Below are positions 12,431 through 45,139 of a stretch of DNA of 51,787 nt, in pieces. Numbering within the stretch: the first letter of the stretch is position 1; each line of letters begins with the position of its first letter. A program made the translations under genes and the position numbers. Below the pieces are notes generated by a model. It did not search any database, was not told the DNA's origin, and was given only the letters and a program-made list of their open reading frames with translations. This stretch comes from Gemmatimonadota bacterium (lineage in GTDB: Bacteria > Latescibacterota > UBA2968): assembly GCA_009838845.1 (NCBI GenBank), contig VXRD01000095.1, positions 19,207 to 70,993 on the forward strand, read 5' to 3'.

Positions 12431-13837
12431 ATGAATGGTGATTTAAAAAAGAATGTAGATTATTCAATTATTCCCGGTGTGGATAGGGTGCTCAATGAAC
12501 AGGCGATTCAGACGCTTTCAAAGCACTGTGGGACGTCTGTTTTGACCGATATGATTCGGCAGGCGATAGACCGCGTGCGGGGGATGATGCGCGATGGCGA
12601 ATCGGTGGGGAAGTCTCGTGAGGCGTTGATTAAATGGATTGTTGGGGATGTGCAGATCCAATTGGCAGACCAGCTTGCGCCAAATCTCAGGCGTGTTGTG
12701 AACGCGACCGGGGTTATCTTGCACACCAATTTGGGACGCGCGCCTCTGTCCGATGTTGCGGTGAAACATATTGCCGATATTGCTGGTTCGTATAGCAATC
12801 TGGAGTTGGATCTGGATACTGGACAACGCGGATCGCGTACGACGCTTGTGGAAAAATTGTTGTGTGAGTTGACCGGCGCCGAGGCCGCTGCGATTGCAAA
12901 TAACAATGCAGCGGCTGTTTTGTTGACGTTAAATACACTGGCTGGGGGCAAAGAGGCGATTGTGTCGCGCGGGCAACTGGTCGAAATTGGGGGATCGTTC
13001 CGCATTCCCGATATTATGTCGCGCAGTGGGGCGCAACTCGTCGAGGTGGGGACGACCAATCGCACTCATTTGAGCGATTACGAAAACGCTTTGACGGAAA
13101 ATACTGGGGTGATGCTGGCGGTGCATCCGAGCAATTACAAGGTGATGGGGTTTACCGCCGAAGTTGCACTGGAAGATATGGTGGTGTTGGGACGACAACG
13201 CGGCGTGCCTGTGGCGCACGATTTGGGCGGCGGTGTGCTGGTCAATTTGCGGGATTACGGATTGCCCTACGAGCCGCTGGTATCTGATAGTATTTCCGCC
13301 GGGGCAGATGTGGTGATGTTTAGTGGTGACAAGGTTCTCGGCGGGCCTCAGTGTGGGATTATTGTGGGGAAACAAAATGTCGTAGAACAAATTCGCAAAA
13401 ATCCCTTGATGCGCGCGTTGCGTTGTGGAAAGCTGACGTATGCCGCGCTGGAGGCGACGTTGAAGTTGTTTTTAAATCCAGAGGCATTAGCGCGCGAACA
13501 TCCCACACTTCGCATGTTGACGGAGCCTGTGGGAATGCTTGAGCGGCGTGGTCAGAAGTTGTTGCGGATGATCGGTGAACTTGAGGGTTTTTCATGTGAA
13601 TTGGTCGATTCTCAGGCTCAAACTGGCAGTGGTGCGCTGCCTTTGGAAAATATCCCGAGTGTTGCAGTCGCAATTTCCGGTGGCGATATTTTGTCCCTTT
13701 CCAATGCGTTGCGCCGCTATGATCCGCCCGTTATTTGCTATGTGCGCGGTGACCAGTTATTTCTGGATTTGCGCACGATCAGAGATGACGAGGTGAGTAT
13801 TGTGGGCGATGCGGTACAAAAAGGAGCGCGGGGTTGA
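12431..13837 (+). CDS. selA: L-seryl-tRNA(Sec) selenium transferase
   Basis: A 468-residue PLP enzyme that turns seryl-tRNA(Sec) into selenocysteinyl-tRNA(Sec) using selenophosphate. The PLP lysine is Lys301 in FSGDKVLGGPQCG, matching E. coli Lys295. Other family signatures are NATGVILHTNLGRAPLS, YSNLELDLDTGQRGSR and AHDLGGGVLV. Length is normal. The stop codon overlaps the selB start (TGATG), a typical translational coupling. The selD gene for selenophosphate synthetase and the tRNA(Sec) gene are not in this window, so they should be elsewhere in the genome. Confidence 0.95.
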   Translation: MNGDLKKNVDYSIIPGVDRVLNEQAIQTLSKHCGTSVLTDMIRQAIDRVRGMMRDGESVGKSREALIKWIVGDVQIQLADQLAPNLRRVVNATGVILHTNLGRAPLSDVAVKHIADIAGSYSNLELDLDTGQRGSRTTLVEKLLCELTGAEAAAIANNNAAAVLLTLNTLAGGKEAIVSRGQLVEIGGSFRIPDIMSRSGAQLVEVGTTNRTHLSDYENALTENTGVMLAVHPSNYKVMGFTAEVALEDMVVLGRQRGVPVAHDLGGGVLVNLRDYGLPYEPLVSDSISAGADVVMFSGDKVLGGPQCGIIVGKQNVVEQIRKNPLMRALRCGKLTYAALEATLKLFLNPEALAREHPTLRMLTEPVGMLERRGQKLLRMIGELEGFSCELVDSQAQTGSGALPLENIPSVAVAISGGDILSLSNALRRYDPPVICYVRGDQLFLDLRTIRDDEVSIVGDAVQKGARG

Positions 13838-15732
13838 TGGCGCATGTGATTATTGGAACGGCCGGGCATATTGATCACGGCAAGACGGCACTGGTTAAGG
13901 CATTGACGGGTATTGAGACCGATACTTTGCCCGAGGAGCGCGATCGCGGCGTGACCATTGATATTGGTTTTGCGTATTGGAAAGATAATGTGACCATTAT
14001 CGATGTGCCCGGGCACGAGCGGTTTGTCAAGAATATGGTGACGGGGGTGTGTACGGTTGATCTGGCACTTTTTGTGGTGGCTGCCGATGATGGGGTGATG
14101 CCGCAGACGCGCGAGCATCTGGGTATTTTGAATCTTTTGGGCGTGCCCCGCGGTATTGTGGTGTTGACTAAAGTTGATCTGGTAGAAGAAGAGTGGCTGG
14201 AGCTGGTGGAAGAGGAATTGCGGGAGGTGTTTGCAGATACATTTTTGGAGGATGCACCGATTGTGCCCGTATCGTCGATCACGGGTGAGGGGATCGATGC
14301 GTTGCGCGCGGCGGTTGAGGCGGAGGTTGCAAGGGTTGAGGTACGGCCAGACCAGGGTATTTTTCGCTTGCCCGTTGATCGCACTTTTTCCGTGCAGGGA
14401 TTTGGAACTGTGGTGACGGGTACTGTGATTTCAGGGGATGTGCGCGTGCGAGACGAATTGTCGCTGTTGCCAGCGGGCAAAGGTGTTCGAGTGCGCGGCG
14501 TGCAAACGCATGGGCGGGATGTGGATGTGGCACAGGTGGGCGCGCGCGCGGCTATTAATATAAGCGGGGTCGAAGTAGATGAAGTGTCGCGGGGTGATCT
14601 TCTGGCACAACCGGGGTATTTTGAGACGACGTATATGATCGATGCGCGCTTGCACATGCTACCCGATGCACCCGCGCATGTGACAAATCGCACGCGCGTA
14701 CATCTGCTTATGGGACCGCGAGAGGTTTTGGCTCGCGTGGTGTTGCTTGAAGGTGAGACATTGTTGCCGGGTGAGTCGCAACTGGTGCAGTTGCGACTGG
14801 AGGAACCGGGCGTTGCCGCGCGGGGAGACCGTTTTGTGATTCGGCGGTATTCACCGGTGCAAACGCTGGGCGGTGGCGTGGTGCTGGATCCGCAACCCGT
14901 GAAGCATCGGCGGTTTCGGGATGATGTCAATGATGCACTGCGGGAATTGGAGCAGGATGATCCCACACAGGTTTTGTTGACGCGCTTAAAGGCCGCGCGA
15001 TTGCAACCGCGAACTGTACTGCAACTCGCGTCTGAGATGGCGGTGTCTGCGAGTGGGATTGAGGGTCAGTTAACTGCGCTCGCCAATTCGGGTGATGTGG
15101 TTTCTTTTGTTCAGGCGGGTAAAGCGATGTATGTCCACGCGATGTGCTGGCGGGAATTGCTGGACGGGATTGGCGATGCGATGCGGGTTTTTCACGAGGC
15201 GCATCCCCTCCGGCCAGGTGCGAGACGCGAGGAGCTTCGCGCATTGGTGAAGGGGACGCCGTCTGACGATTTGTTTGCGCAGGGTGTTGAATATCTCGTT
15301 CGCGAAGGTATCTTAAGAAGCGATAACGCGCTGATCGGGTTGCGCGATTACAAAATTGCGTTGACGCCCCAACAAGAGGAAATTCGCGATGCGATTGTGC
15401 GGGTATTAAAAGATGGGGGGACGACGCCTGAGGACTTGAAGACGCTGCCCGATGCAATTCAGGTCAATGCCAGCTCTGTGCGAGATGTGGTGTCGGCGAT
15501 GCAGGCTATGGGAAATCTGGTGCGCCTGGACGATACGTTGCTCTTTCATCCGGAGGTGATGGAAGAGGTGGCGCGGCAACTGGTCGATTATCTGAAAGAA
15601 AATGGGGAGATCGATGTATCGACTTTTCGCAGTCTGATCGGCACCACGCGCAAATTTGCCGTGCCGCTGTTGAATTATTTCGATACCCAGGGCATAACCA
15701 TCCGGCAAGGGGATGTGCGGGTGTTGGGATGA
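13837..15732 (+). CDS. selB: Selenocysteine-specific elongation factor SelB
   Basis: A 631-residue GTPase that delivers Sec-tRNA(Sec) to the ribosome at UGA codons with a SECIS element. Domain 1 has G1 GTAGHIDHGKT, G3 DVPGHERF and G4 TKVD, with G2 in RGVTIDIGF. Domains 2 and 3 (about residues 175-350) are EF-Tu-like beta barrels. The C-terminal ~270 residues are winged-helix repeats that bind SECIS RNA (KLPDAIQVNASSVRDVV-like segments, ending IGTTRKFAVPLLNYFD). The ATG at 13837 overlaps the selA stop; a TTG one codon earlier is also possible. The stop is only 1 bp from that of the convergent dehydrogenase gene. Confidence 0.95.
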   Translation: MAHVIIGTAGHIDHGKTALVKALTGIETDTLPEERDRGVTIDIGFAYWKDNVTIIDVPGHERFVKNMVTGVCTVDLALFVVAADDGVMPQTREHLGILNLLGVPRGIVVLTKVDLVEEEWLELVEEELREVFADTFLEDAPIVPVSSITGEGIDALRAAVEAEVARVEVRPDQGIFRLPVDRTFSVQGFGTVVTGTVISGDVRVRDELSLLPAGKGVRVRGVQTHGRDVDVAQVGARAAINISGVEVDEVSRGDLLAQPGYFETTYMIDARLHMLPDAPAHVTNRTRVHLLMGPREVLARVVLLEGETLLPGESQLVQLRLEEPGVAARGDRFVIRRYSPVQTLGGGVVLDPQPVKHRRFRDDVNDALRELEQDDPTQVLLTRLKAARLQPRTVLQLASEMAVSASGIEGQLTALANSGDVVSFVQAGKAMYVHAMCWRELLDGIGDAMRVFHEAHPLRPGARREELRALVKGTPSDDLFAQGVEYLVREGILRSDNALIGLRDYKIALTPQQEEIRDAIVRVLKDGGTTPEDLKTLPDAIQVNASSVRDVVSAMQAMGNLVRLDDTLLFHPEVMEEVARQLVDYLKENGEIDVSTFRSLIGTTRKFAVPLLNYFDTQGITIRQGDVRVLG

Positions 15733-15733
15733 T

Positions 15734-16750
15734 CTATTTGAAATAAGCTCCTAATTTAATATTCTGCTCGGGGTTGCTGGTGATTTTGGGATATTCTGCG
15801 ACGAGGTCTGCAAAAGCGACTATGGGCGTTACAATGGGTTCGCCCGTCAGTTTGCCTTCGGTGAGCAGTCGCCAGCAAGTGGCGTAAACGCGTTTTTCGT
15901 CCCATCGGGGATATTCGCGGTTGGGGTCGCTGCAGGACCGCGAAAATATGAGATTGGGGCGGTTGTAATGCGCTTCTGCGCCAAGATCCAGCCCGGGACC
16001 ATAAGGTGCTGGCGCAGCGCCAGCTACCACATTGCCGCCAAATGCCACGCCGCGTATGGCTGCTTGCAGGGCGTGTACATTGGCGCTGTAGTCAATTGCC
16101 ACATCCACGCCCCGGTTCCCGGTTGCTTTTTTGATTTCTACGCCTGCATCACAGGTTGTGGGATCGAGGATCAGGTCGGCACCGCAGATTTGAGCCACTT
16201 TTTGGCGGTTTTCCAATGGATCGACCGCGATGATTGGATATGCCCCGGATAATTTGGCGATTTGTACGACCATCAGGCCAATGGCTCCCATCCCAAATAC
16301 GGCCACAGCGTCTCCGACTCTCACCTGTCCATCTCTGATCGCACACATGGCAAAATCCGCCGGGTCCAAACAGACCGCGGATTTCCACGAAAATCCTTCT
16401 GGTACTTTCCAGCACCGTTCGGTCGAGATGACATGGACTTCTCTAAATGGTCCGTAGCTCAGCACTACGTCGCCTTCTGCGAACCTATCTACGCCCTCGC
16501 TGATTACAGTGCCTATAAACATATTGCCCGTCCGAGACGACCGCCCTTTGCCCGTGTTTGGGAATACCTGGAGTTCCGGATCATAAGGTCCGCGTTTCGC
16601 GCTGTCACCTTTTATCCCCGATAACTCGGTTCCGTGCTTGGCCGCAGCGTACAGGCTCTGCACTTTCATCTGTCCTGTTCCTACTTTTGGTACCTCGTAT
16701 TCCCGCAGTTCCATCTTTTCGGGTGATAGGGCACATACTTCCAGTGGCAT
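15734..16750 (-). CDS. Zinc-type alcohol dehydrogenase-like protein (MDR superfamily)
   Basis: A 338-residue medium-chain dehydrogenase/reductase. The NAD(P) site is VFGMGAIGLMVVQIAKLSGA near residue 160, followed by a typical IIAVDPLENRQ acidic end. The usual N-terminal catalytic zinc Cys is replaced (YAAAKHGTELSG), and the structural-zinc loop with four Cys is absent. It therefore belongs to the group of MDR proteins without structural zinc, similar to the bacteriochlorophyllide dehydrogenase-type branch. It is the last gene of the six-gene operon running from 23139; GH29 is 17 bp upstream. A role in oxidising a sugar or polyol from the same substrate is plausible but inferred. GGAGG before the ATG supports the start. 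Confidence 0.8.
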   Translation of the reverse strand: MPLEVCALSPEKMELREYEVPKVGTGQMKVQSLYAAAKHGTELSGIKGDSAKRGPYDPELQVFPNTGKGRSSRTGNMFIGTVISEGVDRFAEGDVVLSYGPFREVHVISTERCWKVPEGFSWKSAVCLDPADFAMCAIRDGQVRVGDAVAVFGMGAIGLMVVQIAKLSGAYPIIAVDPLENRQKVAQICGADLILDPTTCDAGVEIKKATGNRGVDVAIDYSANVHALQAAIRGVAFGGNVVAGAAPAPYGPGLDLGAEAHYNRPNLIFSRSCSDPNREYPRWDEKRVYATCWRLLTEGKLTGEPIVTPIVAFADLVAEYPKITSNPEQNIKLGAYFK

Positions 16751-16767
16751 GGTATCCTCCTATTCGT

Positions 16768-18489
16768 TTATTGGCGCGTCAGAGAAATGGCTGAGACGGA
16801 TAGTCCGGCACGGGATTCTTTGTTGATGGATTCGGCGCGGACTTCGATAGTGTAAAGGCCGGGGTTGTCGAGTTGGACCTGGCCGATAATGGTTGCGGCT
16901 TCGGGGAAATACTGCGCTTTGGGGCTGTCGCTCCAGACGTCGGGTGTGATGGTTTTTCGGAATGTACTGCCCGCAATATCAACGCGTACTTCATGGCCAC
17001 CTGTCCATTCGCGGACGCGGCGGAGCGTGCTGGTGTGAACGCGTATTTCAAAGGTGCCGGGTTTGAAGACTTTGAAGTCGCAATCGATCCAGTTGGATGT
17101 GTCAAACCAGTCTTGAATTACACCAGTTTCGCCAATGCGGATCTGCGTTCCCGTCTCGGACGTGTGCAAGTTTGCCATGCTGGCGATCATGGTGATAGAG
17201 CCATCGGTTTGCTGGAGAGCGGTTTGATCGACATCGGGTGCGCCATCGAGTTCGAGGGCGATGACTGAGACATTTGGGTCGGGGCATTCGGGCAGGCGCA
17301 ATGTTAGAATATCGCAATCGCTGTCGCGGGTTTGAGAGACGTCAATGTGCGCGCTTTTATCGGCGAGCAAGGTCGCGTTTGTAACGCGGTTGCGCAGGCC
17401 CAGGAGGGTGAAATGCTCACCGGGCCATGTGGTAAAGAGCAAGTAGAGACGGTTGCCTTTTTGCGTGATGCCGCCCCAGGGAAATTCATAGGGGTATGGC
17501 GTGGCTTTGGTTCCGTAGATCGCTTCGCCGTTGGTTTTCATCCATTCGCCAATGGCGCGAAGGCGATTGACACTGGGCTGGGGCACACTGCCGTCGGCGC
17601 GCGGCCCGATGTTGAGCAGGTAGTTGACGCCTTTGCTGGTGAGTTCAACGAGAAGATGGAGCAGTGTTTTTACGCTTTTCCAGTTGTGGTCATCGGTTTT
17701 ATAGCCCCAGATATCGTTGAGGGTGGCGGGTGTCTCCCAGTAGCCTTCGAGGCGACCGGTGGGGATCTGGTTGTCGCCCAGGCTGCCATAGTCCCCTACG
17801 CCATTGCCCACGCGACCACTGACGAGGCAGTCGGGTTGCAAACCGTGGACGAGACGGGAGAGCGATTGGCTCTGTTCCAGGGAAATGGAGACGGGAGTGT
17901 CGAACCATATCAGGCCGATAGGCCCATATTGCGTGAGCAACTCGCGCACCTGGGGTTTGGCTTTGTTTTCGAGATAATAGGCGAAGTCTTTGGTCGCGGG
18001 ATCAAAATCCCAGTTGTTTCCAGAGGCGTTGGGGTCGTGCCAGTCCTGATCTTGAGAATAGTAGAAGCAGAGGCGAATGCCGTATTTTTGGCAGGCTTTG
18101 GATAGGTCTGCCATAATATCTTTGCCATAAGGCGTGGCATCGACGATGTCGTAGTCGCTGCACTGGGAGTCATACATGGCAAAGCCGTCGTGGTGTTTTG
18201 CCGTGATAACGAGGTATTTCATACCTGCATCCCGCGCGAGTTTGGCAACCGCATCGGCGTCGAATTTTACCGGATTGAATTGTGAGGCGAGTTGTTCGTA
18301 TTCCGCGGCGGGAATTTCAGCGCGGCGCATAATCCATTCTCCGATGCCCTCTATGGCTTTGCCTTTCCATTTGCCCGCGGGAATCGCATACACGCCCCAG
18401 TGAATGAACATGCCAAACCGCGCTTCTTCCCACCATGCAATGCGCTCGCGGTCACGTCTGGTCTGTCGCGTTTTTGCTGCGGTATTCAT
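16768..18489 (-). CDS. Alpha-L-fucosidase (glycoside hydrolase family 29)
   Basis: A 573-residue GH29 enzyme that would release alpha-L-fucose with retention of configuration. The N-terminal catalytic barrel opens with WWEEARFGMFIHWGVYAIPAG, a family signature, and continues with YLVITAKHHDGFAMYDS. The nucleophile Asp is in IGLIWFDTPVS near residue 195. The acid/base region is less conserved, as usual in GH29. The remaining ~150 residues form a beta-sandwich domain (TFEIRVHTSTLRRVREWTGG). No signal peptide is visible, so it may be cytoplasmic or exported another way. It lies between a dehydrogenase and a serine hydrolase in an operon with a sulfatase, which suggests sulfated fucose glycans as substrate. 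Confidence 0.93.
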   Translation of the reverse strand: MNTAAKTRQTRRDRERIAWWEEARFGMFIHWGVYAIPAGKWKGKAIEGIGEWIMRRAEIPAAEYEQLASQFNPVKFDADAVAKLARDAGMKYLVITAKHHDGFAMYDSQCSDYDIVDATPYGKDIMADLSKACQKYGIRLCFYYSQDQDWHDPNASGNNWDFDPATKDFAYYLENKAKPQVRELLTQYGPIGLIWFDTPVSISLEQSQSLSRLVHGLQPDCLVSGRVGNGVGDYGSLGDNQIPTGRLEGYWETPATLNDIWGYKTDDHNWKSVKTLLHLLVELTSKGVNYLLNIGPRADGSVPQPSVNRLRAIGEWMKTNGEAIYGTKATPYPYEFPWGGITQKGNRLYLLFTTWPGEHFTLLGLRNRVTNATLLADKSAHIDVSQTRDSDCDILTLRLPECPDPNVSVIALELDGAPDVDQTALQQTDGSITMIASMANLHTSETGTQIRIGETGVIQDWFDTSNWIDCDFKVFKPGTFEIRVHTSTLRRVREWTGGHEVRVDIAGSTFRKTITPDVWSDSPKAQYFPEAATIIGQVQLDNPGLYTIEVRAESINKESRAGLSVSAISLTRQ

Positions 18490-18516
18490 AATGTCTCCTT
18501 AGTGTATGGGTGGAAA

Positions 18517-19620
18517 CTATTCTTCCACTGCTGCTGCGACTGCATTGGAAACCCGTCGCAGGAGGCTTCCGTCGGCGACCATCTGGTTGGTGAGCACTAC
18601 GCAACTGAGTTGACGCTCGGCGTCTGCCCACGCTACTGTGCCGGTCGCTCCGGTATGTCCGAAGGTTCGCCGCGATACCAGGTCGCCCCAAAAGCCCCAC
18701 ACCCGCGCTCCGGATACGCCCCAACCGATTCCCCAGGGCGCATTGAGTGCACCGTTTTGATCTTGTGTCATTGTTGCGACTGCGGCGCAGCTGAAGATGC
18801 GCTGATCGCCATAAGTGCCGCCGTTGAGCATGGTTTGCAATAGGATCGCCAGATCGCGTCCGGTGCTGTGCATGCCGCCCCACGGCGCTCCAAAGTCGCG
18901 CCAGTAAGGGGAGTTCCAACCCCAGCTTTGTTGTTCTTCGTCCTCTTCGGCGTCCGTTCCGCACCATACCAGGTCTTCAAGTGTCCAATTACCCATGCCC
19001 AATGCGCTTTGCGCCATTCCCAGCGGTGCAAAGATCTCCTCGCGCTCGAAGTCGCGCAATCGCTGTCCACTGACTCGTTCGACAATTTCGGCTGCGAGCA
19101 AGATGCCCATGCTCTGGTAGCAAAAATCGGTTTCCGGTTTGTAGAGCAAGGGCGTCTGGAGTGCTAGTTCTACGAAGCCAGCTACGGGTGTGTGCGCCTG
19201 TCGCAAGCTGGTGTTTTCGGGTAGCATGTCGGGCATGCCGGATATGTGCGAGAGCAAATGGCGCACTTTGACGGTGGGGCGGTCGCCGCCGGTGTATTCG
19301 GGTAGATAATCAATGGCCGGGTCGTTGAGTGAGATCAGCCCCCGATCTACGAGGATCATCAGCGCGCAGGCTGTAACGGGTTTGGTGATTGAGGCGAGGA
19401 GAAATATCGAGTCCGCATCGACTGGCTGGCGTGTGCGAGGGTGCTGTTGCCCGCATCCCCGGGCGAAGACTTCCTTGCCGTGCCGTGTAACCGTCAGCGA
19501 GGCCGCGCCAATTTGTCCGGCTTCTGTGGCGGCTGTGAGCAGGTTAAAAGCTCGTTCGAGTTGGTCGGCAGACATGTCGGCGTCCTGGGGGGTAGCTACT
19601 ACGAGTGTGTTATTTGCCAT
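18517..19620 (-). CDS. Serine hydrolase of the beta-lactamase (class C / S12) family
   Basis: A 367-residue serine beta-lactamase-like protein. The SxxK motif is LLASITKPVT with Ser77 and Lys80, the second motif is YQSMGILL (Tyr-x-Ser), and the third is FGHTGATG in place of KTG. The HTG variant is common in esterases and D-amino-acid-type enzymes of this family, so esterase, deacylase or transferase activity is more likely than antibiotic hydrolysis. No signal peptide is seen. It sits between the enolase-superfamily gene (12 bp) and GH29 (27 bp), so removal of acyl groups from a glycan or its fragments is a plausible role. Confidence 0.85.
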   Translation of the reverse strand: MANNTLVVATPQDADMSADQLERAFNLLTAATEAGQIGAASLTVTRHGKEVFARGCGQQHPRTRQPVDADSIFLLASITKPVTACALMILVDRGLISLNDPAIDYLPEYTGGDRPTVKVRHLLSHISGMPDMLPENTSLRQAHTPVAGFVELALQTPLLYKPETDFCYQSMGILLAAEIVERVSGQRLRDFEREEIFAPLGMAQSALGMGNWTLEDLVWCGTDAEEDEEQQSWGWNSPYWRDFGAPWGGMHSTGRDLAILLQTMLNGGTYGDQRIFSCAAVATMTQDQNGALNAPWGIGWGVSGARVWGFWGDLVSRRTFGHTGATGTVAWADAERQLSCVVLTNQMVADGSLLRRVSNAVAAAVEE

Positions 19621-19632
19621 AGTTATCCCTTT

Positions 19633-20763
19633 TTATACAGAAATGCAAAACCCGCCTTCTTCGCGTGTTCCCCGTGCAATTGTTTCCGGTGCGAGGTCAA
19701 ATCCCGTTCCCGGCGTATCTGGCACGATGAGGTGACCGTCTCGAAATTTCCAACCGTCGAGTACTATGCCCTGCGTATTTGCTGGCGCTGCTTCTAATAG
19801 ACAAAAATTTGGAATCGAAGCGGCAAAATGTGCGTGTGCATATCGCTCGATAATACTGCCCCAGCAATGCGGGGCACATTGCGCATCCCAGGGGGCAATC
19901 ATATCCGCTGTCGCTTTCCACCAGGTCAATCCTCTGGCGCGAAAATCGTGTTGCACAATGTCAATCCAGCCGCGTTCTACCATGTCAAAAAAATTCGACG
20001 GTGGTTTTGACTCGCCATCTGCGACATAAGTGTCATAACCAGAGGCCTGGATAAATGCCTTGAATGGTTCGGTGAAACCCCGTTCCTCGTGAAAGGCTTC
20101 TTCAAACCAGTAGATCCTTGCGGATTCACACCGTTTGAGAATTTCCTGGGCAATATTTAGCGTTGTGCCATTGTTGGCATCAACGAGAATTTTGGCGTCT
20201 GGTCCCGCTGCCTCTCGAATTGTTTGAATGACGATTACATCCCGTTCCAGTCCTTCCATAATCGGCATCCATTTTGCTCCGCGCCCAATTTTTATTTTAA
20301 AATTTTTGAACCCGTGTTCCTGGCCGGTTTTTACTTCTTCCTGGAAAATTGCCACTGCTTCGTCATCTGTCGCTTCCAGATCGTCGATATAGACCGATCC
20401 GTCGTAGAGTTCCACTTGCCGAGAACCGCGCGCGCCCAGCAGTTTGTACAATGGCATATCCGAGAGTTTTGCCACCAGATCCCACAGTAGTAAGTCGATA
20501 CTTTCTCCCGCTTTCAGACAGCCGTTGGGCAATGCGAAGAGTTCATTCAATTGTTTTCCCAAGAATTGTTCGGCCTGTTTGCGGTTTATGCGCGACCAGC
20601 CAACGCCAACGGCTCCGCTATCTGTATGGATGCGAACGACGTGATCCGTAACTATATTGCCTCCTGGTCCGCCTTTGGAATTTACGCCCACAAAGCGGGG
20701 ACGCCGACTTTTTAACATTACTTTTTCAATGCGTACAATGCGTTCGGAAAGTAGATCTGCCAT
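19633..20763 (-). CDS. Enolase-superfamily enzyme (mandelate racemase/muconate lactonizing type)
   Basis: A 376-residue member of the enolase superfamily, which abstracts the alpha proton of a carboxylate such as a sugar acid. The KxK catalytic motif is FKNFKIKIGRG, and the metal ligands are in ILVDANNGTTLN (Asp), YWFEEAFHEERG (Glu) and YVADGESKPPSN (Glu). A C-terminal HCWGSIIERYAHAH supplies the remaining base region. The ATG at 20763 with GGAGGT seven bases upstream is preferred to a TTG two codons earlier. It follows the sulfatase stop by 2 bp. In this operon, sugar-acid dehydration (such as L-fuconate or another aldonate) is possible, but the exact substrate cannot be set. Confidence 0.85.
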   Translation of the reverse strand: MADLLSERIVRIEKVMLKSRRPRFVGVNSKGGPGGNIVTDHVVRIHTDSGAVGVGWSRINRKQAEQFLGKQLNELFALPNGCLKAGESIDLLLWDLVAKLSDMPLYKLLGARGSRQVELYDGSVYIDDLEATDDEAVAIFQEEVKTGQEHGFKNFKIKIGRGAKWMPIMEGLERDVIVIQTIREAAGPDAKILVDANNGTTLNIAQEILKRCESARIYWFEEAFHEERGFTEPFKAFIQASGYDTYVADGESKPPSNFFDMVERGWIDIVQHDFRARGLTWWKATADMIAPWDAQCAPHCWGSIIERYAHAHFAASIPNFCLLEAAPANTQGIVLDGWKFRDGHLIVPDTPGTGFDLAPETIARGTREEGGFCISV

Positions 20764-20765
20764 TG

Positions 20766-22229
20766 TCAAGACCTCCGTTTGTTGTCGCGTTCAAAAACGA
20801 CATCATCGCCAAACCGCTTCCGCCCCTTTGCAGCAGGTCCAACAATGTCTAACTGTCCTCTGCCCATCACGGCTTCGCGCGAGCCATCCCGCTCGGGATC
20901 GGCATAGCGCACAAACCACGTATCCAGATCGGCTTGTAGCGATTCCCGAATGGGCTGGTGTTTTTGTTCTGCGATCAGATTTTGTCGTTCATCCGGGTCG
21001 TTTACCAGATCGTAGAGTTCATGAGGTCCATAGGGATAGCGATGGACGTACTTCCATTCCGCAGTGCGGATCATTCGCGTGGGACCGTATTCGTCATATA
21101 CAACCACCTTGTCGTTGCTATCTAAAGCACGTCCTTCCAGCAATGCGGAAAAGCTGCGTCCGGGAAGGGAATCGGAGTCGGGATTTTCTACGTTGAGATA
21201 GTCCAGTAAGGTCGGCATGATGTCGTAATGGCTGTGCAGTGAGGAAATAACTTTGCCTTCGGGAACGCGACCTGGATGCGAAAAGAGCATGGGGACTTTC
21301 ACCGAGGTGTCGAACATGTTTGGCGGGAATGTTCCATTGCCTTTGCCGTAAATTCCGTGATGTCCCATGTTCATTCCATTGTCGCTTGTAAATGCGATGA
21401 GTGTATTTTCTCGCAGTCCATTGGCTTCCAGCCAATCCAGCAACCTGCCCACGTTGGCGTCCATTGCGGTCATGGCGGCAAAATATCCGCTAAGCGTTTC
21501 ACTGCGTTCTTCTTTTGTAAATCCCAAAGAACCCGATGACCCCGTCTTTGACAACTGCTGGGGGTGCATGGGCTCATCGGGGGTTGATTCAAAAGGACAG
21601 TTTTGGTAATAATCTTCGAATAATTCTGGCGGATGGTGTTCGCGCCCCCAGGGCGCGTGAGGCGCTGTGTAGTGGACATTTAAGCAGAATGGTTGATCTG
21701 CGTCCTTTTGGGTTTCCAAAAATTCCAATGCATTATCTGTAATCAGATCGCTCACGTAATCCGATGTTTGATACGCTTTGCCGTCGCGAATCATCGGGGG
21801 ATTGTAATACGGTCCCGCGCCACTTGCGTGAACATCCCAAAACGCAAAACTTTTCTGCGGTTTTTCCGAATAGCCCAGATGCCATTTGCCACTTAAACCA
21901 CACGTGTAACCCCGTTCAGATAAGATATCTGTATATGCTGTTTGTCCCGATAGATATTCGATAGCCCGATCATCTGCGCCGTAAATATTTGAATTGCCTG
22001 CCCGCAAAAAATCCTGTACGCCGTGTTGCGATGGAATGCGGCCCGTTAAAATGGAAGCCCGAGCCGGCGAGCAGACTGGCGACGCGCAAAAGAAATTCTC
22101 AAAGCGCAATCCCGTTGTGGCCAATAGATCCAGATTTAGCGTGCGAATTTCCGAATTGCCCGCACATCCCATCGCCCAATATCCCTGGTCGTCTGTTAAG
22201 ATAAAAAGCAAGTTGATTTGTTCAGACAT
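20766..22229 (-). CDS. Type I sulfatase
   Basis: A 487-residue sulfatase with the formylglycine signature CSPARASILTGR (Cys53). The N-terminal metal site is LLFILTDDQGYWAMGCAG; a further site is FTSDNGMNMGHHGIYGKGNG. The C-terminal half has GPHELYDLVNDPDERQNL. It is similar over the whole length to the sulfatase at 30820 (both have GRIPSQHGV and TSDNGM/F..HHG.WGKGNGT-like segments), so the two are paralogues. No signal peptide is visible. It is the second gene of the fucosidase operon. The stop is 2 bp before the next start, consistent with coupled expression. Confidence 0.92.
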   Translation of the reverse strand: MSEQINLLFILTDDQGYWAMGCAGNSEIRTLNLDLLATTGLRFENFFCASPVCSPARASILTGRIPSQHGVQDFLRAGNSNIYGADDRAIEYLSGQTAYTDILSERGYTCGLSGKWHLGYSEKPQKSFAFWDVHASGAGPYYNPPMIRDGKAYQTSDYVSDLITDNALEFLETQKDADQPFCLNVHYTAPHAPWGREHHPPELFEDYYQNCPFESTPDEPMHPQQLSKTGSSGSLGFTKEERSETLSGYFAAMTAMDANVGRLLDWLEANGLRENTLIAFTSDNGMNMGHHGIYGKGNGTFPPNMFDTSVKVPMLFSHPGRVPEGKVISSLHSHYDIMPTLLDYLNVENPDSDSLPGRSFSALLEGRALDSNDKVVVYDEYGPTRMIRTAEWKYVHRYPYGPHELYDLVNDPDERQNLIAEQKHQPIRESLQADLDTWFVRYADPERDGSREAVMGRGQLDIVGPAAKGRKRFGDDVVFERDNKRRS

Positions 22230-22254
22230 GGTATTTATTCCGTTTGTGAAAGGC

Positions 22255-23139
22255 CTATTCTCTCCCGAGTATTTTTAACAGGCGGTCCGGCCGGCGAGTG
22301 ATGATGCCATCTACCCCTTTTTCAATCAGCATTCGCATTTTCGATTCGTCATCCACAGTCCATATTTGCACCTGTATATTGTTTTTGCGTGCCCCTGATA
22401 AAAGGCGTGGATGGCTACCATTTATCGGTCCCATTTTTAGTGGGAACTGCAATACTTCGACATTGGGCTGGTAAACCGCGCTCAGGTGCAGCCAGCACAG
22501 GGCGTAAAAAATCATTCCTTCCGTCATGCCCGGCGATGTTGCTACTTCGGGAAACTGCTTGCGAAAACGCTTCAATGTTCCGGTGTCAAAACACGCGACC
22601 AGCACGCGGTGCTGCATCCCATGGCGGCGAATCAGGTTGCCAAATGCCTCGACAATATCCGGCTCTTTCTGTTTGATTTCAATGGTCATTCGCATGTGCG
22701 GAAAAGACGCGAAGACTTCATCCAGCGTTGGAGCTACTATTCCTTTTCCGCGAAAGGGAAAAGTCGCGCCCTTGTCAGCCGTCCATTTGTATCCCGCATC
22801 TAACTGTTTCAATTCTGCAAGTGTTAGATCATTTACACGCGCGTTGCCATTGGTCGTGCGCGTTACGGTCTCATCGTGAAAGACCACGATATGGTCGTCT
22901 TTTGTACTGCGGATATCCATTTCCAGCATATCTACGCCGAGATCTACGGCATGTTGAAAAGCATACAGTGTATTTTCGGGCCACAACCGCCAGCCTCCCC
23001 GGTGTGCGATCACTTCAACACCCGCGTTTTTTTTGATAAAAGGATGATCGGGCATCGGTTTCCTCCAGATGGATAGCGCAACAGACAACGCAATGAATAA
23101 CAATATGGAGATGAGCAAAATTTTAGCGATTCGTTTCAC
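22255..23139 (-). CDS. Glycerophosphodiester phosphodiesterase (GDPD)
   Basis: A 294-residue GDPD-family protein with a TIM-barrel fold, which hydrolyses glycerophosphodiesters to glycerol-3-phosphate and an alcohol. The catalytic signature VIAHRGGWRLWPENT and the second His in VVFHDETVTRTTNG are present, with MLEMDIRSTKDDHI as the metal-binding segment. An N-terminal membrane segment (ILLISILLFIALSVALSIW) is followed by the catalytic domain, so it is anchored in the membrane facing the periplasm. The start is a GTG with no clear Shine-Dalgarno. It is probably first in the operon that ends at 15734; sulfatase follows after 25 bp. Confidence 0.88.
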   Translation of the reverse strand: MKRIAKILLISILLFIALSVALSIWRKPMPDHPFIKKNAGVEVIAHRGGWRLWPENTLYAFQHAVDLGVDMLEMDIRSTKDDHIVVFHDETVTRTTNGNARVNDLTLAELKQLDAGYKWTADKGATFPFRGKGIVAPTLDEVFASFPHMRMTIEIKQKEPDIVEAFGNLIRRHGMQHRVLVACFDTGTLKRFRKQFPEVATSPGMTEGMIFYALCWLHLSAVYQPNVEVLQFPLKMGPINGSHPRLLSGARKNNIQVQIWTVDDESKMRMLIEKGVDGIITRRPDRLLKILGRE

Positions 23140-23273
23140 GATCGGGTCAACCGTATCAAGTTGTCTGTGTATTCTGGTAAATGCGAGAGAAGATTTTTGG
23201 GAGTTTCGCGCTTGATTTCTCGAAGGTGTGTTGTTAATTTGATCAGTTGAAAATCTAATTTATCGGAAAGTTT

Positions 23274-23696
23274 ATGTCTCGCACATTTATCAAATTTGCC
23301 CTCACGGGGTTATCGGGGGTATTCGTCAATCTCGGTTCGTTTCAATTCTTGCTCAATCTCGGTGTGCATAAGTTGCTCGCATCGCCAGTTGCAATTGAGC
23401 TGTCGATTATCTCAAATTTTCTGCTCAATAACTACTGGACCTTCCGCGATCGCGCACTGGCGGGGAGAAAGCGCGTTCGGGGTTTGAAGTACAATCTCGT
23501 TTCACTGGTGACTCTCGTGCTGAGTTATGGCACATTTGTCTTGCTTTCCTTCCTTTTTCCAGCGGTGCAATCGGTCATTTTGCAGGGGTGCGCGATTGCC
23601 CCGGCCACATTGTTTAACTATTTTATCAATTCCCTCTGGACGTTTCGCGAGGTGACAGACGAACGCCCGGAAGAACAGGAGGACGGTACGCCATGA
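23274..23696 (+). CDS. GtrA-family membrane protein
   Basis: A 140-residue GtrA-like protein with four predicted membrane helices. Family signatures are FIKFALTGLSGVFVNLG at the N terminus, FLLNNYWTFRDRA in the middle, and FNYFINSLWTFRE near the end. GtrA members move or help move polyprenyl-linked sugars across the membrane. The ATG overlaps the start of the next gene through ATGA at 23693-23696, so the two are tightly coupled. No dedicated GtrB-like polyprenol glycosyltransferase is next to it in this window. Confidence 0.85.
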   Translation: MSRTFIKFALTGLSGVFVNLGSFQFLLNLGVHKLLASPVAIELSIISNFLLNNYWTFRDRALAGRKRVRGLKYNLVSLVTLVLSYGTFVLLSFLFPAVQSVILQGCAIAPATLFNYFINSLWTFREVTDERPEEQEDGTP

Positions 23697-25777
23697 ATCG
23701 CGTGCATGCCCAGGATGGAACATTTAATCCCTTGCGCGATGGAATCGCACTGGCCGCATCGGTTATTGGCCCGCTTGTGCTTTATGTGCTTACCATGCCG
23801 CGCACTGTTGTTCTGGAAGATGACGGCTTGTTTCTCATGGCTGGAGCACACCTCGGCGTGGCCCATCCACCGGGCTATCCGCTCTATACCCTTATCGTCT
23901 ATCTGTTTACGCAATTGCCCTTTGGTAGTGTTGCTTTTCTCGGTCATTTGTCCAGCGCGGTATTGGGCGCGCTCACCTGTGGCTGCGTTTATGTGTGTGC
24001 CCGTTTGTTGGGCGCATCGCCAACCCCAGCTAGGACTGCCGCCTGGCTGTTTGCCGCTTCTGAGCATTTCTGGTCTCAGGCTATTATTGCCGAGGTTTAT
24101 ACGCTCAATACGCTGTTCTTTTTTGGTCTCTACGCGCTGCTTTTATACGGCCTCCGCCAGCCGCACCGCACCGGGATCTGGATTGCTGCGGCTGGCGTTT
24201 ATGGATTGAGCCTGACCAACCACTGGCCGCTGATGGTGCTTTCAACGCCGGGTTTGATGTTATTGGTCTTTCCCATTTGGCGCACCGTGTATCGGAAACT
24301 GCCGTTGCTTTTGGGGATTTCCCTGCCGTGTGCGGCATTGCCCTATGCATGGATGGTCTGGCGGTCGCATCAAGATCCCCTGATCAATTTTTACGGCTCT
24401 ATCGATACGTTGAAAGAATTTTGGCATTATTTCAGCCGGCAGGGCTATGCCCATATAGATGCCAGCCCCAGCGCGGGGTGGAGTGACCGCTTCGGGTTCA
24501 TGCAATGGCTTGGCAACGAATTTTTTTGGCAATTGACGCTGCCGGGATTTGCACTCGCTGTGTTCGGCCTGATCGTTCTTTTTCAGCGGCGGCAGATCGC
24601 AAAAGCAGGTTCGGGATTGCTGGTATTTTTGGGCAATAGCATCGTGCTGATCGCCTTGCTGGGCTTTGATTTTGACTTTTTCTGGGGCGCGATTTTTCGG
24701 CCATATTCTCTGCTTTGTTACGGCATAGCGGCTCTGTGGCTGGGCGTTGGATTGCAGGTTGTGATCGACTGGTTGGCAGAACGGTTGCCTTCCAAATTTA
24801 CCCAGAGGCCGAGACTCAAAATTGGTATGGCAGCGCTGGTGGGCACGGCGATGGTTGCGTGGTCGGTGCACGAACACTGGCGGCCCAATGATCGATCCGA
24901 TAGCGACTTTGCCGAGCACTATGCAGACATGCAATTGGATATTTTGCCGGAGGACGCGGTTTTATTCGTGTTTGGCGATGCAACCGGGCCGATGGGCTAT
25001 TATCAATACATCGAGAACCGCCGTCCGGATGTTGCGTTGTACAATCTTCAGGGACTCGTATATGGCAAACGCCTCTACGATCCATTTTTACCGAAAGAAA
25101 ATAAGAAGGAGGTTCTGGAAAAATTCACCGATTCGACAGAACGCGCCCTCTTCTTTCCTATGGATTTCGACATTTTTCCCAACCGCCGGGGACGGATCTA
25201 TGGTTTTCTCATGGAGGTGGTTAAAGATGGCAAGCCGGGTACCATAGAAATAAAACGCCATCCGCGTGGAGAGGAATATTTCATCTATCTGGTGCATTTG
25301 CAACCCATTGATCGCTGGGAGCGCGTGCGACGAAATGGATTGTTGTTCCAGTACGGTCGATATTTGGGTTTGATTTATTTTTCGGGCGATTCGGGGCTTC
25401 TCAATTCAATGCAGGAATTATTCCGCCTCGCAGAGGGTAGTTATGCCTGCCTCATCGGCATGGCCGGCACACTGATAGAGCATGGGAATAACTCGCACTG
25501 GGAACAAGTCTCGGCGTGGTTAGAGAGGGCGGAGACCCTCAAATACGAGGCATTGAAAAAGCAAACTCTGGCGCGGCTATACTACTTGAAGGGAAGCCTG
25601 CTGCAAAAACAGGGCAAGAGAGTAGAAGCTGTTGCGTCTTTTGCGAAATCCCGCGACATATATCCCCATCCCGGTAACAAGGCGCTCGAGGCCCTTGAAC
25701 AATACAAGGTCAATTTCAAAAGGGTCAATCCGCCACGTCGGGAAAACCCAAAACCCGTTTTGCCGTTCCCCCCATAA
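23693..25777 (+). CDS. DUF2723 protein, O-mannosyltransferase-like membrane protein
   Basis: A 694-residue multi-pass membrane protein of the DUF2723 family, whose members resemble protein O-mannosyltransferases and other GT-C enzymes that use polyprenyl-phosphate sugars. The N-terminal signature is EDDGLFLMAGAHLGVAHPPG, with an acidic pair in the first extracytoplasmic loop as in GT-C enzymes. About eleven hydrophobic segments run to residue ~400. The C-terminal ~280 residues are soluble, and the last ~90 look TPR-like (KGSLLQKQGKRVEAVASFAK). The start overlaps the gtrA stop. The 3' end overlaps the convergent amidohydrolase gene by 53 bp. Sugar donor and acceptor are unknown. Confidence 0.8.
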   Translation: MNRVHAQDGTFNPLRDGIALAASVIGPLVLYVLTMPRTVVLEDDGLFLMAGAHLGVAHPPGYPLYTLIVYLFTQLPFGSVAFLGHLSSAVLGALTCGCVYVCARLLGASPTPARTAAWLFAASEHFWSQAIIAEVYTLNTLFFFGLYALLLYGLRQPHRTGIWIAAAGVYGLSLTNHWPLMVLSTPGLMLLVFPIWRTVYRKLPLLLGISLPCAALPYAWMVWRSHQDPLINFYGSIDTLKEFWHYFSRQGYAHIDASPSAGWSDRFGFMQWLGNEFFWQLTLPGFALAVFGLIVLFQRRQIAKAGSGLLVFLGNSIVLIALLGFDFDFFWGAIFRPYSLLCYGIAALWLGVGLQVVIDWLAERLPSKFTQRPRLKIGMAALVGTAMVAWSVHEHWRPNDRSDSDFAEHYADMQLDILPEDAVLFVFGDATGPMGYYQYIENRRPDVALYNLQGLVYGKRLYDPFLPKENKKEVLEKFTDSTERALFFPMDFDIFPNRRGRIYGFLMEVVKDGKPGTIEIKRHPRGEEYFIYLVHLQPIDRWERVRRNGLLFQYGRYLGLIYFSGDSGLLNSMQELFRLAEGSYACLIGMAGTLIEHGNNSHWEQVSAWLERAETLKYEALKKQTLARLYYLKGSLLQKQGKRVEAVASFAKSRDIYPHPGNKALEALEQYKVNFKRVNPPRRENPKPVLPFPP

Positions 25778-26627
25778 TCTCTGCTTTTTGCTGCGCGTTT
25801 AAATCCGGCAATAATTCATCGATTACCTGCACCAACTTATCATACCCCGGATCTTCCAAAATCCAGGGGAAATCCGTCGCCCACATCAATTTGTCTGCGC
25901 CGAACTTGGAAAGCAATGTTTTGTGCCAGCTCTCCAGGTCGCGATAGGGCCATGTCTCCTGGCTAAATGCATATTGTCCCGATAGATGTACGCAGATATT
26001 GGGGTATTCGTGCAAGCCCAGCATCGAGTAGCGCGTCATCGGCGGTATGGGGGTATTGATGTGCGGGCGGCCTTCGGCATCCCACGAAAACATTCCTTCG
26101 CCTGGACAGATCATCAGGTGGTTAAACACGGCGCGAATTTCAGGAAATGCCTGAATCATAAAGGCGACTTGATGTGCGTCTTTCGCCCGGATATACAGCC
26201 ACATCACGTAGTTTTTTTCAGCCGCGTGTTTCCAGATGCGATACGAAGTAAATGTTCGTACATCCACTTGGGATAGGGGATCGGCAGGTCCGCCAATTTC
26301 GTTAATCCTGAATCCGATAATATCCCCATTTTCAGCCAACCGATCCATGTGGTCTTCCGGTGCGTCCCATTTGTCTCGAGGAATCAACCCAATTCCTCGG
26401 AAGCGATTGGGATAAGTCTTTAAACAATGCTGTAAGTACCGATGGTGCGCCAATTGCGCACCGCCAATCTGCGTCAGCACGGCCTGATCGACCCCATTGG
26501 CCGCCATGACCTCCAATAATTTTTCTGCTGTCTCTGCCCTATCTGAGGGACACTGATCATCCACCTCTCGGGGAAATTCGTCCGACAGTTTTTCAAATAC
26601 ATGCAGGTGCGAGTCAATAATTGGCAT
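25725..26627 (-). CDS. Amidohydrolase-family protein (amidohydro_2)
   Basis: A 300-residue metal-dependent hydrolase of the amidohydrolase_2 group, which includes decarboxylases and lactonases of aromatic acids and sugar lactones. The opening PIIDSHLHVFEKL carries the HxH metal motif. The C-terminal signature LMWATDFPWILEDPGYDKL with Asp is typical. Start ATG at 26627 is preceded by GAGAGATGATAGC. It is 4 bp from the stop of the upstream PhyH gene and so in the same transcript. Its 3' end overlaps the DUF2723 gene on the other strand by 53 bp. A wider frame adds a spurious 37-residue N terminus. Confidence 0.82.
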   Translation of the reverse strand: MPIIDSHLHVFEKLSDEFPREVDDQCPSDRAETAEKLLEVMAANGVDQAVLTQIGGAQLAHHRYLQHCLKTYPNRFRGIGLIPRDKWDAPEDHMDRLAENGDIIGFRINEIGGPADPLSQVDVRTFTSYRIWKHAAEKNYVMWLYIRAKDAHQVAFMIQAFPEIRAVFNHLMICPGEGMFSWDAEGRPHINTPIPPMTRYSMLGLHEYPNICVHLSGQYAFSQETWPYRDLESWHKTLLSKFGADKLMWATDFPWILEDPGYDKLVQVIDELLPDLNAQQKAEIMGGTAKRVLGFPDVAD

Positions 26628-26631
26628 GCTA

Positions 26632-27351
26632 TCATCTCTCATCCAGGCTGAACAACCGCCTGCGGTCTGGCGTTGTGCATTTATCCGCAATGGCTGCAAA
26701 ATGTTTGGTCGATATGCGGTCCTTACTCCACTTTTCATAGATGAGGATAATCGACTTGCGCGGCTTTAACGTGCGGTTGACCATTGCGGTATGCCATCCA
26801 TAAGAATTGAATAATACCGCATCGCCAGCTTTGCCCGGATACACTTTGTGCCCCGGCATCGAATCCAATGGACGAACCAGAGGACACGGCCCGACATCGG
26901 GTTTATGACTGCCCGGTACATACCCAAATGCTCCGCCATCGGCCGGAACATCTTCAATATAAATCTGTACCTTCATATGGAGTGGTGTCGTATGCGGCAC
27001 ATCCGGATGCCAGCCCACATAACTGATGGGTGAGACCGGCAGAGTTCTTATTTGCGGCGCGAGCAAGATCAGATCTTCATCGGCAAAATCCATCAAAAAC
27101 CCGTACCAGCCCGGATAATCAATCAGGTCAATAAATACGTCGTCCTTTTCCAATGGCTTTGGAATATCAAAATGGGCCGCGGGACGCGTGCCTTTTGCAA
27201 TTCCCTCCAACCATTCGCGCCTGGCCTCGGCGGCACATCGGTCAAATGTCGTCTGTAACCGCGCGAGGTCTTCTCCTAAAATTGCTTTTTCTAAAAACAA
27301 CACGCCGTTATCTTCCCATTCCTGCCGTTCAGCATCTGTTGGCCGTCTCAT
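26632..27351 (-). CDS. Phytanoyl-CoA dioxygenase family (PhyH) protein
   Basis: A 239-residue non-haem Fe(II)/2-oxoglutarate dioxygenase of the PhyH family. The first iron ligands are in YVGWHPDVPHTTPLH (His-x-Asp, about residues 114-116), and the distal His is in SYGWHTAMVNRT. Such enzymes hydroxylate unactivated carbons of lipids, amino acids or natural products. The ATG at 27351 with AGGAG 6 nt upstream is preferred to several upstream starts. It is first in a two-gene unit with the amidohydrolase, preceded by the terminator at 27434-27460. The substrate is unknown. Confidence 0.83.
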   Translation of the reverse strand: MRRPTDAERQEWEDNGVLFLEKAILGEDLARLQTTFDRCAAEARREWLEGIAKGTRPAAHFDIPKPLEKDDVFIDLIDYPGWYGFLMDFADEDLILLAPQIRTLPVSPISYVGWHPDVPHTTPLHMKVQIYIEDVPADGGAFGYVPGSHKPDVGPCPLVRPLDSMPGHKVYPGKAGDAVLFNSYGWHTAMVNRTLKPRKSIILIYEKWSKDRISTKHFAAIADKCTTPDRRRLFSLDER

Positions 27352-27433
27352 ACACATCTCCTGACAAGTGGTTCGCAATACCATATACCCGCCGCGAACA
27401 ATTAATTGGACAAAAGCGGCGAAGTCAAACAAA

Positions 27434-42176: not shown

Positions 42177-42178
42177 GG

Positions 42179-42991
42179 TCAGTCGGGAATGGCGAAGCGG
42201 TCGTGGGAAAGAAAGACGCGCGTGATTTTCAGGAAGCGGGGACCTTTATACGCGTCGCGTTTGTGCAGGAGTTGTGCGTTGTCGTAAATGAGCATGTCGC
42301 CCATGCGATAGTTGTGCTGGTATATGTGCTGTGGGCGGAGTTGATAGGTGAGCAGTTCGTTTTTGAGTGCCTGGCTTTCGGCTTCGTCCAGCCCGTCAAT
42401 TCCACGCGTGTGGGGAGCCAGATAGAGAGTTTTTCGACCTGTGCTCGGGCTGGTGAGTACCAGAGGATGGGTGACTACAAGGGGTTCGACTTCGTGAATT
42501 TTGCCGGGCAGATATTTGACGCGCATGTTCTCGATGTGCTTCTTGAGTGTTTTCGGAAGGGCTTCATAGCCCATGTGTGTACTACAAAAGCTGGTGCCGC
42601 CCCCTTGTTCCGGGGCGATGATACAGAAAAGCGTGGATAGTGTGGCGGGATTTTTGCGAAAGGCCTGATCTGTATGCCAGCTACTGTCATTGTCTGTGAT
42701 GGGAGCACCGATAAATGTTCCTTCATCATTGTTCAAATTCGAGAGGTAATTGACTTCTTTGAAACGGGGACTGTGATTGACTCTGGCTGCGGGTTCTGCG
42801 ACGGGTCCGAGCGCAGCACTGAGGGTGTAGATGTCTTCGTCGTGGAGCGATTGCCTCCGAAAGAGAAGCAGGGCGTGTTCGTTGACTGCATCGAGAAGGG
42901 CTTCGGCCATTTCGCCATTGATTTGGGTGAGGTCAATGTCGTGAACTTCAACGCCGTAGTTGGGCGTGAGAGGTGTTGTTCGGAAGGTCAT
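42179..42991 (-). CDS. TauD/TfdA-family Fe(II)/2-oxoglutarate dioxygenase
   Basis: A 270-residue dioxygenase of the TauD/TfdA family, which oxidises a C-H bond next to a heteroatom (taurine, alkyl sulfates, aryloxyacetates and similar). The iron motif is SSWHTDQAFRKNP (His-x-Asp near residue 104), and the distal His and the 2-oxoglutarate Arg are in LIYDNAQLLHKRDAYKGPR. The ATG at 42991 overlaps the stop of the PhyH gene by 4 bp (ATGA), which fixes the start. A longer frame into PhyH is spurious. A TauD-like oxidation of a sulfated or sulfonated compound would suit the sulfatase-rich context, but this is inference. Confidence 0.88.
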   Translation of the reverse strand: MTFRTTPLTPNYGVEVHDIDLTQINGEMAEALLDAVNEHALLLFRRQSLHDEDIYTLSAALGPVAEPAARVNHSPRFKEVNYLSNLNNDEGTFIGAPITDNDSSWHTDQAFRKNPATLSTLFCIIAPEQGGGTSFCSTHMGYEALPKTLKKHIENMRVKYLPGKIHEVEPLVVTHPLVLTSPSTGRKTLYLAPHTRGIDGLDEAESQALKNELLTYQLRPQHIYQHNYRMGDMLIYDNAQLLHKRDAYKGPRFLKITRVFLSHDRFAIPD

Positions 42992-43761: not shown

Positions 43762-43779
43762 GAGACATATTTCCCGAAG

Positions 43780-45123: not shown

Positions 45124-45139
45124 TGAATTTGCTCCTGTC

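Follow-up and report, generated by a model that had tools for sequence, protein, structure and literature searches.

The window analysed here is a stretch of 51,787 nucleotides on contig C95 of a Latescibacterota genome of class UBA2968 (assembly GCA_009838845.1, a 5.75 Mb metagenome-assembled genome that is 97.8% complete), and its subject is a run of six open frames that lie head to tail on the minus strand between positions 15734 and 23139 (Table 1). The original prediction had assigned these genes to one operon for the use of a sulfated fucose-containing glycan, an interpretation that the analysis supported in part. Counted from the MDR gene towards the glycerophosphodiester phosphodiesterase (GDPD) gene, the gaps were 17, 27, 12, 2, and 25 bp when the enolase-type gene was taken to start at the ATG at 20763, which is the better start because the listed TTG at 20769 is not kept in all relatives. 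The open frames thus confirmed the predicted arrangement of six genes on one strand, 2-27 bp apart, and Pfam agreed with each of the six family names, as did NCBIfam except that the GH29 protein had no match there. The six genes are intact and under purifying selection: their ratio of nonsynonymous to synonymous substitution (dN/dS) was 0.04-0.17 in all 32 comparisons against six of the ten genus relatives, and the three values dropped as apparent frame artefacts belonged to flanking genes (amidohydrolase in G006 and G007, PhyH in G007) and to none of the six. Scans of positions 15600-23400 for promoters (10, where shuffled sequence gave a mean of 7.2) and terminators (11, where it gave 9.8) were uninformative. 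Also as predicted, neither a sugar importer nor a SusC/SusD pair beside the enzymes was recognised among the 36 window open reading frames scanned (of 84 mechanical ones of at least 120 residues), which leaves the locus outside the SusCD-type polysaccharide utilisation loci.

Table 1 Features of the operon and of its surroundings in the window
Feature	Position	Strand	Length (aa)	Remarks
MDR-type dehydrogenase	15734-16750	-	338	Last gene of the operon; Pfam ADH_zinc_N 7e-20
GH29 alpha-L-fucosidase-type hydrolase (predicted)	16768-18489	-	573	Pfam Alpha_L_fucos 3e-85
S12 serine hydrolase (beta-lactamase fold)	18517-19620	-	367	Pfam Beta-lactamase 8e-66
Enolase-superfamily (mandelate racemase subgroup) dehydratase-type protein	19633-20769, likely start 20763	-		Pfam MR_MLE_C 6e-37
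S1-type sulfatase	20766-22229	-	487	Pfam Sulfatase 2e-48
Glycerophosphodiester phosphodiesterase (GDPD)	22255-23139	-	294	First gene of the operon; Pfam GDPD 3e-44
SelA and SelB	12431-15732	+		Convergent with the operon, 1 bp away from its last gene
Amidohydrolase and PhyH	25725-27432	-		Frames overlap as listed
Second sulfatase	30820-32193	-		57% identical to the operon's sulfatase
DUF6785/6784 protein, TauD and PhyH dioxygenases, MOFRL-type protein	40182-45198	-		One run of genes

Domain and model analysis suggested that the GH29 protein is an alpha-L-fucosidase-type hydrolase, for which fucoside hydrolysis is predicted. Its GH29 domain scored 287 bits against PF01120 (cut-off 25), the top structural Z of its model (mean pLDDT 82) was 38.9, to the GH29 fucosidases 9eu4 and 6gn6, and D197 of the WFD motif, which from the family we take to be the catalytic nucleophile Asp, was invariant in 17 of 17 aligned rows. 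The sulfatase carries the formylglycine motif C-x-P-x-R (PVCSPARASILTG from residue 51), and its closest PDB sequence match was 5g2v, an N-acetylglucosamine-6-sulfatase. Nine proteins of the genome matched PF03781 over the cut-off (best 288 bits) and five matched TIGR03942, none of them over the cut-off; these proteins are candidates for the sulfatase maturase. The second sulfatase of the window has PhyH, amidohydrolase, DegT, and xylose-isomerase-like genes nearby, and matches of 55-57% to the operon's sulfatase were seen in many other genomes of the class.

By a hydropathy test, which is not SignalP, five of the six products appear to have no signal peptide, and their hydropathy peaked at 1.36 or less in the first 45 residues. 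Upstream extension of the frame in this genome is possible by at most 15 residues for the sulfatase and at most 3 for the GH29 protein; the GH29 frame is open for 737 codons in G001, G002, and G003, and a longer start is possible there. Since five of the six products appear to lack a signal peptide, the substrate is more likely to be small and imported than to be a polymer, so the glycan of the original prediction is better replaced by a small imported saccharide. The sixth product, GDPD, begins with a strongly hydrophobic stretch (mean 3.4 over the 12 residues 7-18), predicted to be a membrane anchor or a signal. The S12 protein has the motifs S77-x-x-K, Y168 (of YxS), and H322-T-G and is possibly an esterase or a lactonase.

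The enolase-type protein was modelled with 29 sequences (mean pLDDT 89.5), and over 371-374 residues the model matched one Geobacillus enzyme, seen in the entries 3vcc, 3qpe, 3p3b, 3v5c, 3n4f, and 3ops (Z 45.0-45.4, 2.1-2.2 Å, 32% identity), the next match in the 50 structural rows having a Z of only 32.7. Four of these six entries are titled D-galacturonate or galacturonate dehydratase. K158, K160, D197, E223, E253, D275, and H301 were kept in all 29 rows, and we take them, as in the mandelate racemase subgroup, to form the KxK motif, three acidic metal ligands, and the His-Asp dyad. What differs is the 20s loop, where the motif N-x-R/K-x-x-x-H-G reads N-S-K-G-G-P-x-G in the window type: four of four window-type rows lack its histidine, which 25 of 25 class relatives and the solved 3n4f have. 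This histidine presumably binds the substrate, and because it is absent we did not file the window protein as a D-galacturonate dehydratase in spite of the full-length fold match. Compared with the Geobacillus enzyme, then, the whole-length fold and the catalytic-type residues are alike and the loop histidine is not. No entry titled fuconate dehydratase was met among the 60 of 114 sequence matches listed or the 50 structural rows, and absence from such a list excludes nothing. KduI had no match in the genome at E 0.001, and the usual onward route of the galacturonate product is therefore not apparent.

How the enolase-type protein groups had been proposed as a check on the prediction. It came out as an acid-sugar dehydratase type, as expected, but closest to the D-galacturonate dehydratase and not to a characterised fuconate dehydratase, though the two substrates are related. 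L-Fuconate is 6-deoxy-L-galactonate. L-Galactonate in turn is described as D-galacturonate reduced at C1 (PMC6353982), and because of these two relations L-fuconate and D-galacturonate have the same configuration at the reacting carbons. A D-arabinonate dehydratase is described as having been used to make the keto-deoxy acids of both L-fuconate and L-galactonate (PMC11199699). A shift of substrate from uronate to fuconate would be chemically easy. On this basis the window-type enzyme might be a neofunctionalised branch of the D-galacturonate dehydratase family that dehydrates L-fuconate, seen here only in one Latescibacterota genus, the switch lying mainly in the 20s loop and being eased by the shared configuration of the acids; we regard this specific proposal as speculative and rather unlikely.

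Eleven genomes of the genus (G000-G010) were compared, and the operon was found to be real and conserved, but at the level of the genus only. All six genes stand in order on one contig in G000, G002, G004, and G007, and the order is consistent in G003, where a contig break falls within the enolase gene and leaves the set on two contigs. The enolase gene is missing from G001 and G006, which keep the other five in order, and from G005, where these five are spread over two contigs. G010 gave S12-GH29-MDR and GDPD fragments and no close sulfatase, and in G009 an MDR fragment lies elsewhere and close GH29 and S12 genes were not found. In the most divergent member, the one-contig genome G008, only GH29-MDR is at this place, beside selAB. 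Across the genus the full-length MDR matches were 81-98% identical, and GDPD adjoins the sulfatase in nine of the ten genomes with close copies of both. The GH29-sulfatase linkage held in 6/7 genomes that could be judged on one contig (G000, G001, G002, G004, G006, and G007) and failed in G008, so the predicted linkage stood for most of the genus, with a paralogous pair in the window's own genome besides, and broke in one member, where the case that the original prediction had named as refuting (orthologous loci without this linkage) is thus encountered.

Outside the genus, no two different proteins of the set lay less than 15 kb apart among the 187 match positions listed in 35 genomes of the class, from lists limited by E-value or length. 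The search for the same gene order in other genomes, which the original prediction had proposed, thus succeeded within the genus and not beyond it. Relatives of GDPD with 38-56% identity were found in 23 of these 35 genomes, away from the other five genes. Some distant neighbours were seen: the MDR gene of G012 has a sulfatase-like and an enolase-like gene nearby (26% each), the GH29 gene of G032 has an enolase-like one (27%), and a GH29 gene of G025 adjoins a sulfatase-like one (27%); they were not counted as conserved order, because enolase-type and sulfatase genes are abundant.

Tree analysis pointed to different histories for the parts. The MDR proteins branch as the family does. In the S12 tree, built from 30 sequences, the genus nests inside genus g13 of another family, f4, with supports of 99-100, and since the S12 protein is 83-84% identical to those of four g13 genomes while the MDR proteins of the same four are only 54-55% identical, the S12 gene is best read as horizontally acquired from another family. 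As a family paralogue, the window-type enolase stands on a long branch (clade support 100, nearest relative G013 at 62). In G001, G005, and G006 a remnant of the enolase gene, its start with roughly nine codons, persists at the junction between the sulfatase and S12 genes (in G001, eight of nine residues), which means that the enolase gene was deleted there, and its insertion into an older junction was rejected by the same scar. A single loss in its simplest form was rejected too, as monophyly of the three species had a p of 0.001 in the approximately unbiased (AU) test on the concatenated locus, of whose 4461 columns G009 and G010 fill only 1843 and 1094. The deletion allele, with nearly the same scar in all three, must therefore have moved or arisen more than once. 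A class-wide enolase paralogue is present in G001, G005, and G006 and could cover the loss. The window's enolase-type protein has a paralogue of 67% identity on contig C101.

The operon converges on selA and selB, and the window yielded no tRNA gene, hence no selC. Different unrelated genes lie between MDR and SelB (L155 4300-8348; L039 14449-17400), an ATPase-like gene and others in G008 and Uma2-like and pentapeptide-repeat-like genes in G002 (named by eye), and this stretch is an apparent insertion hot spot. Taken as a whole, the operon seems to be a genus-restricted patchwork that was assembled recently within one genus.

Two parts of the operon recur elsewhere. A second pair of GH29 (44%) and sulfatase (51%) genes was found on contig C83 of the same genome, with a GH5 gene, an esterase, a xylose-isomerase-like gene, and a MocA-type dehydrogenase, and G007 has a GH29 gene (44%) with two sulfatases (50-51%). 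The genome has at least 151 sulfatase matches (150 of 205 first-look candidates were scored), and 150 of these 151 made up the list used for linkage. Six of eight GH29 matches were within 5 kb of a listed sulfatase, against a fraction of 0.206 of the genome covered (binomial p 0.0015); two of the eight share contig C139, and one of those two is weak (33-bit). The proximity is an enrichment and not a proof.

The second part is the enolase gene with its neighbours. At 34 loci of enolase paralogues, genes on the enolase's strand included an S12 type at 11, an MDR type at 16, an M20-like type at 16, and an isocitrate/isopropylmalate-type dehydrogenase at 8, these counts not being independent, with loci related by descent and some contigs short. 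The S12 and MDR proteins at these loci share only 26% and 28% identity with the window's own. This recurrence suggests that the enolase, S12, and MDR activities belong together. The serine hydrolase, which the original prediction had called an unusual partner like GDPD, is in fact a recurrent neighbour of the enolase family, and it is GDPD that stands apart in G008. At L048 and L051, two of the paralogue loci, and at L058, an enolase paralogue was seen in a same-strand set with an S12 or isocitrate-dehydrogenase-type gene, an M20-like gene, and an MDR gene, beside an SMC gene; these sets are candidate sugar-acid pathways.

L-Fucose is described as passing to 2-keto-3-deoxyfuconate (KDF) by way of a dehydrogenase, a lactonase, and a dehydratase (PMC11199699). 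The predicted handling of the released sugar by the dehydrogenase and the enolase-type enzyme fits both this non-phosphorylating route and the recurrent enolase-S12-MDR module. The operon resembles the route in holding a dehydrogenase, a hydrolase, and a dehydratase-type protein together, but its dehydrogenase is of the MDR type, its hydrolase is an S12 protein and not an amidohydrolase, its dehydratase-type protein belongs to the galacturonate dehydratase branch, and the later steps lie outside the operon. The reading that we prefer, tentatively and with a little less than even confidence, is that of a catabolic operon restricted to the genus and mostly cytoplasmic in action, whose substrate is a small sulfated saccharide that contains fucose and is imported. 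A sulfated fucosyl saccharide would be taken up by an importer outside the operon's six genes, the sulfatase would take off the sulfate, and the GH29 enzyme would free L-fucose. The MDR enzyme would then oxidise C1 of the sugar to give a lactone, which the S12 enzyme would open, unless it removes an acyl group instead, and the enolase-type enzyme would dehydrate the sugar acid to a 2-keto-3-deoxy acid, with GDPD as a passenger or in an unrelated envelope job. What the analysis shows directly is the gene families, their signature residues, the linkage, the purifying selection, and the lack of a hydrophobic N-terminus on five proteins, while all substrates and the order of steps are inferred.

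Several points weigh against this reading. Other Latescibacteria are described as predicted to use fucose by a bacterial microcompartment route (PMC4454575). The genome has one Fucose_iso_C match, partial and with 38 bits against a cut-off of 29, so a phosphorylating fucose route may still operate. No known amidohydrolase-type lactonase is among the six genes, nor any importer or later pathway enzyme (aldolase or KDF dehydrogenase), the rest of the genome not having been searched for the latter two. The amidohydrolase upstream of the operon (25725-26738) was considered as the lactonase and left out, as it matched 4dlf, 4dlm, 4dnm, and 4do7 only at E 4e-4; the group of 4dlf and 4dnm presumably includes a fuconolactonase. 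The nearest characterised relative of the enolase-type protein acts on D-galacturonate and not on fuconate. At other distances the linkage was less marked (p 0.11 for 1 kb, 0.019 for both 3 kb and 10 kb), and some GH29-sulfatase linkage is to be expected because sulfatases are so common. Since G001, G005, and G006 lost the enolase gene while the others stayed, that gene is dispensable. G008 has its sulfatase (83%) and GDPD (81%) elsewhere and gave no close match to the S12 gene or the window-type enolase. In G009, GDPD-sulfatase-enolase runs up to where the contig stops, and two of the frames, those of the enolase and the sulfatase, are broken into two pieces each (L044 1-2448), by either sequencing error or real decay.

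The strongest alternative is that the six genes are not one pathway but catabolic genes recently gathered at the hot spot beside selAB, with an order kept by close kinship. The reduced GH29-MDR set of G008 with its sulfatase and GDPD elsewhere, the origin of the S12 gene in another family, the different unrelated genes in the MDR-SelB stretch of G002 and G008, and the lack of linked pairs at the positions listed outside the genus all speak for this. However, the packing at 2-27 bp and the purifying selection on all six genes speak against it, as does the recurrence of both sub-modules elsewhere with other subfamilies, and we consider such a gathering a serious contender but on the whole unlikely.

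A second alternative keeps the pathway and changes the sugar, with the GH29 enzyme acting as an alpha-L-galactosidase or the enolase type acting on a co-released uronic acid. The GH29 model does match exo-alpha-L-galactosidases of the family as well (7lnp, Z 29.7), and the kinship of the enolase type to the D-galacturonate dehydratase would agree with a uronate, but fucosidases match the GH29 model clearly better, the uronate-type enzyme's loop histidine is lost, and the genome gave no KduI match at E 0.001. We therefore think it quite improbable that the sulfated sugar is other than fucose. That a lipid- or phosphoglycerol-linked glycan is attacked with GDPD as a working part is very improbable, for although GDPD adjoins the sulfatase in most of the genus, it lies apart from all five others in G008, has its relatives outside the genus away from the other genes, and is the sole product with a hydrophobic N-terminus. 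The presence of GDPD, from which, together with the serine hydrolase, the original prediction had drawn such a glycan, does not alone point there, and GDPD is probably a passenger in the operon with no evident part.

In the run at positions 40182-45198, the MOFRL-type protein is presumably of the glycerate kinase type.

Systems of this general kind have been described before. In marine Verrucomicrobiota, GH29 genes are reported beside S1 sulfatases in clusters predicted for fucose-containing sulfated polysaccharides, some of them with other transporters that possibly replace SusCD (PMC8857213), and two Latescibacteria single-cell genomes are described with GH29, GH95, and 14 and 3 sulfatases (PMC4454575). 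The window operon shares GH29 plus sulfatase with both, but by hydropathy its enzymes have no signal peptide, it has no other glycosidase, and it includes S12, enolase-type, and MDR genes. GH29 and GH95 are given as enriched in sponge-associated lineages, with glycosidase enrichment largely limited to groups that include Latescibacteria class UBA2968 (PMC8163846), and PAUC34f and Poribacteria are given as richer in sulfatases than Latescibacteria (PMC7081726). SAR202 bacteria are described as using L-fucose and as having 18 arylsulfatase-type genes and an expansion of enolase-superfamily and dehydrogenase genes (PMC10444878). No description of the six-gene combination was found in the open-licence literature searched. 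The operon is a known kind of system in a new combination. Its new points are the divergence of the enolase-type enzyme and the way in which parts were gained and lost, while the general reading is to be expected in a sulfatase-rich lineage.

The large sulfatase sets of this genome and its close relatives have so far had their uses guessed from gene names, and the operon offers a compact group of proteins on which a possible link between desulfation, fucose release, and sugar-acid dehydration can be tested. Within one genus, moreover, a catabolic operon is seen to grow and to shed genes, and a single loop histidine gives a clean sequence contrast for how an enolase-superfamily dehydratase changes its substrate.

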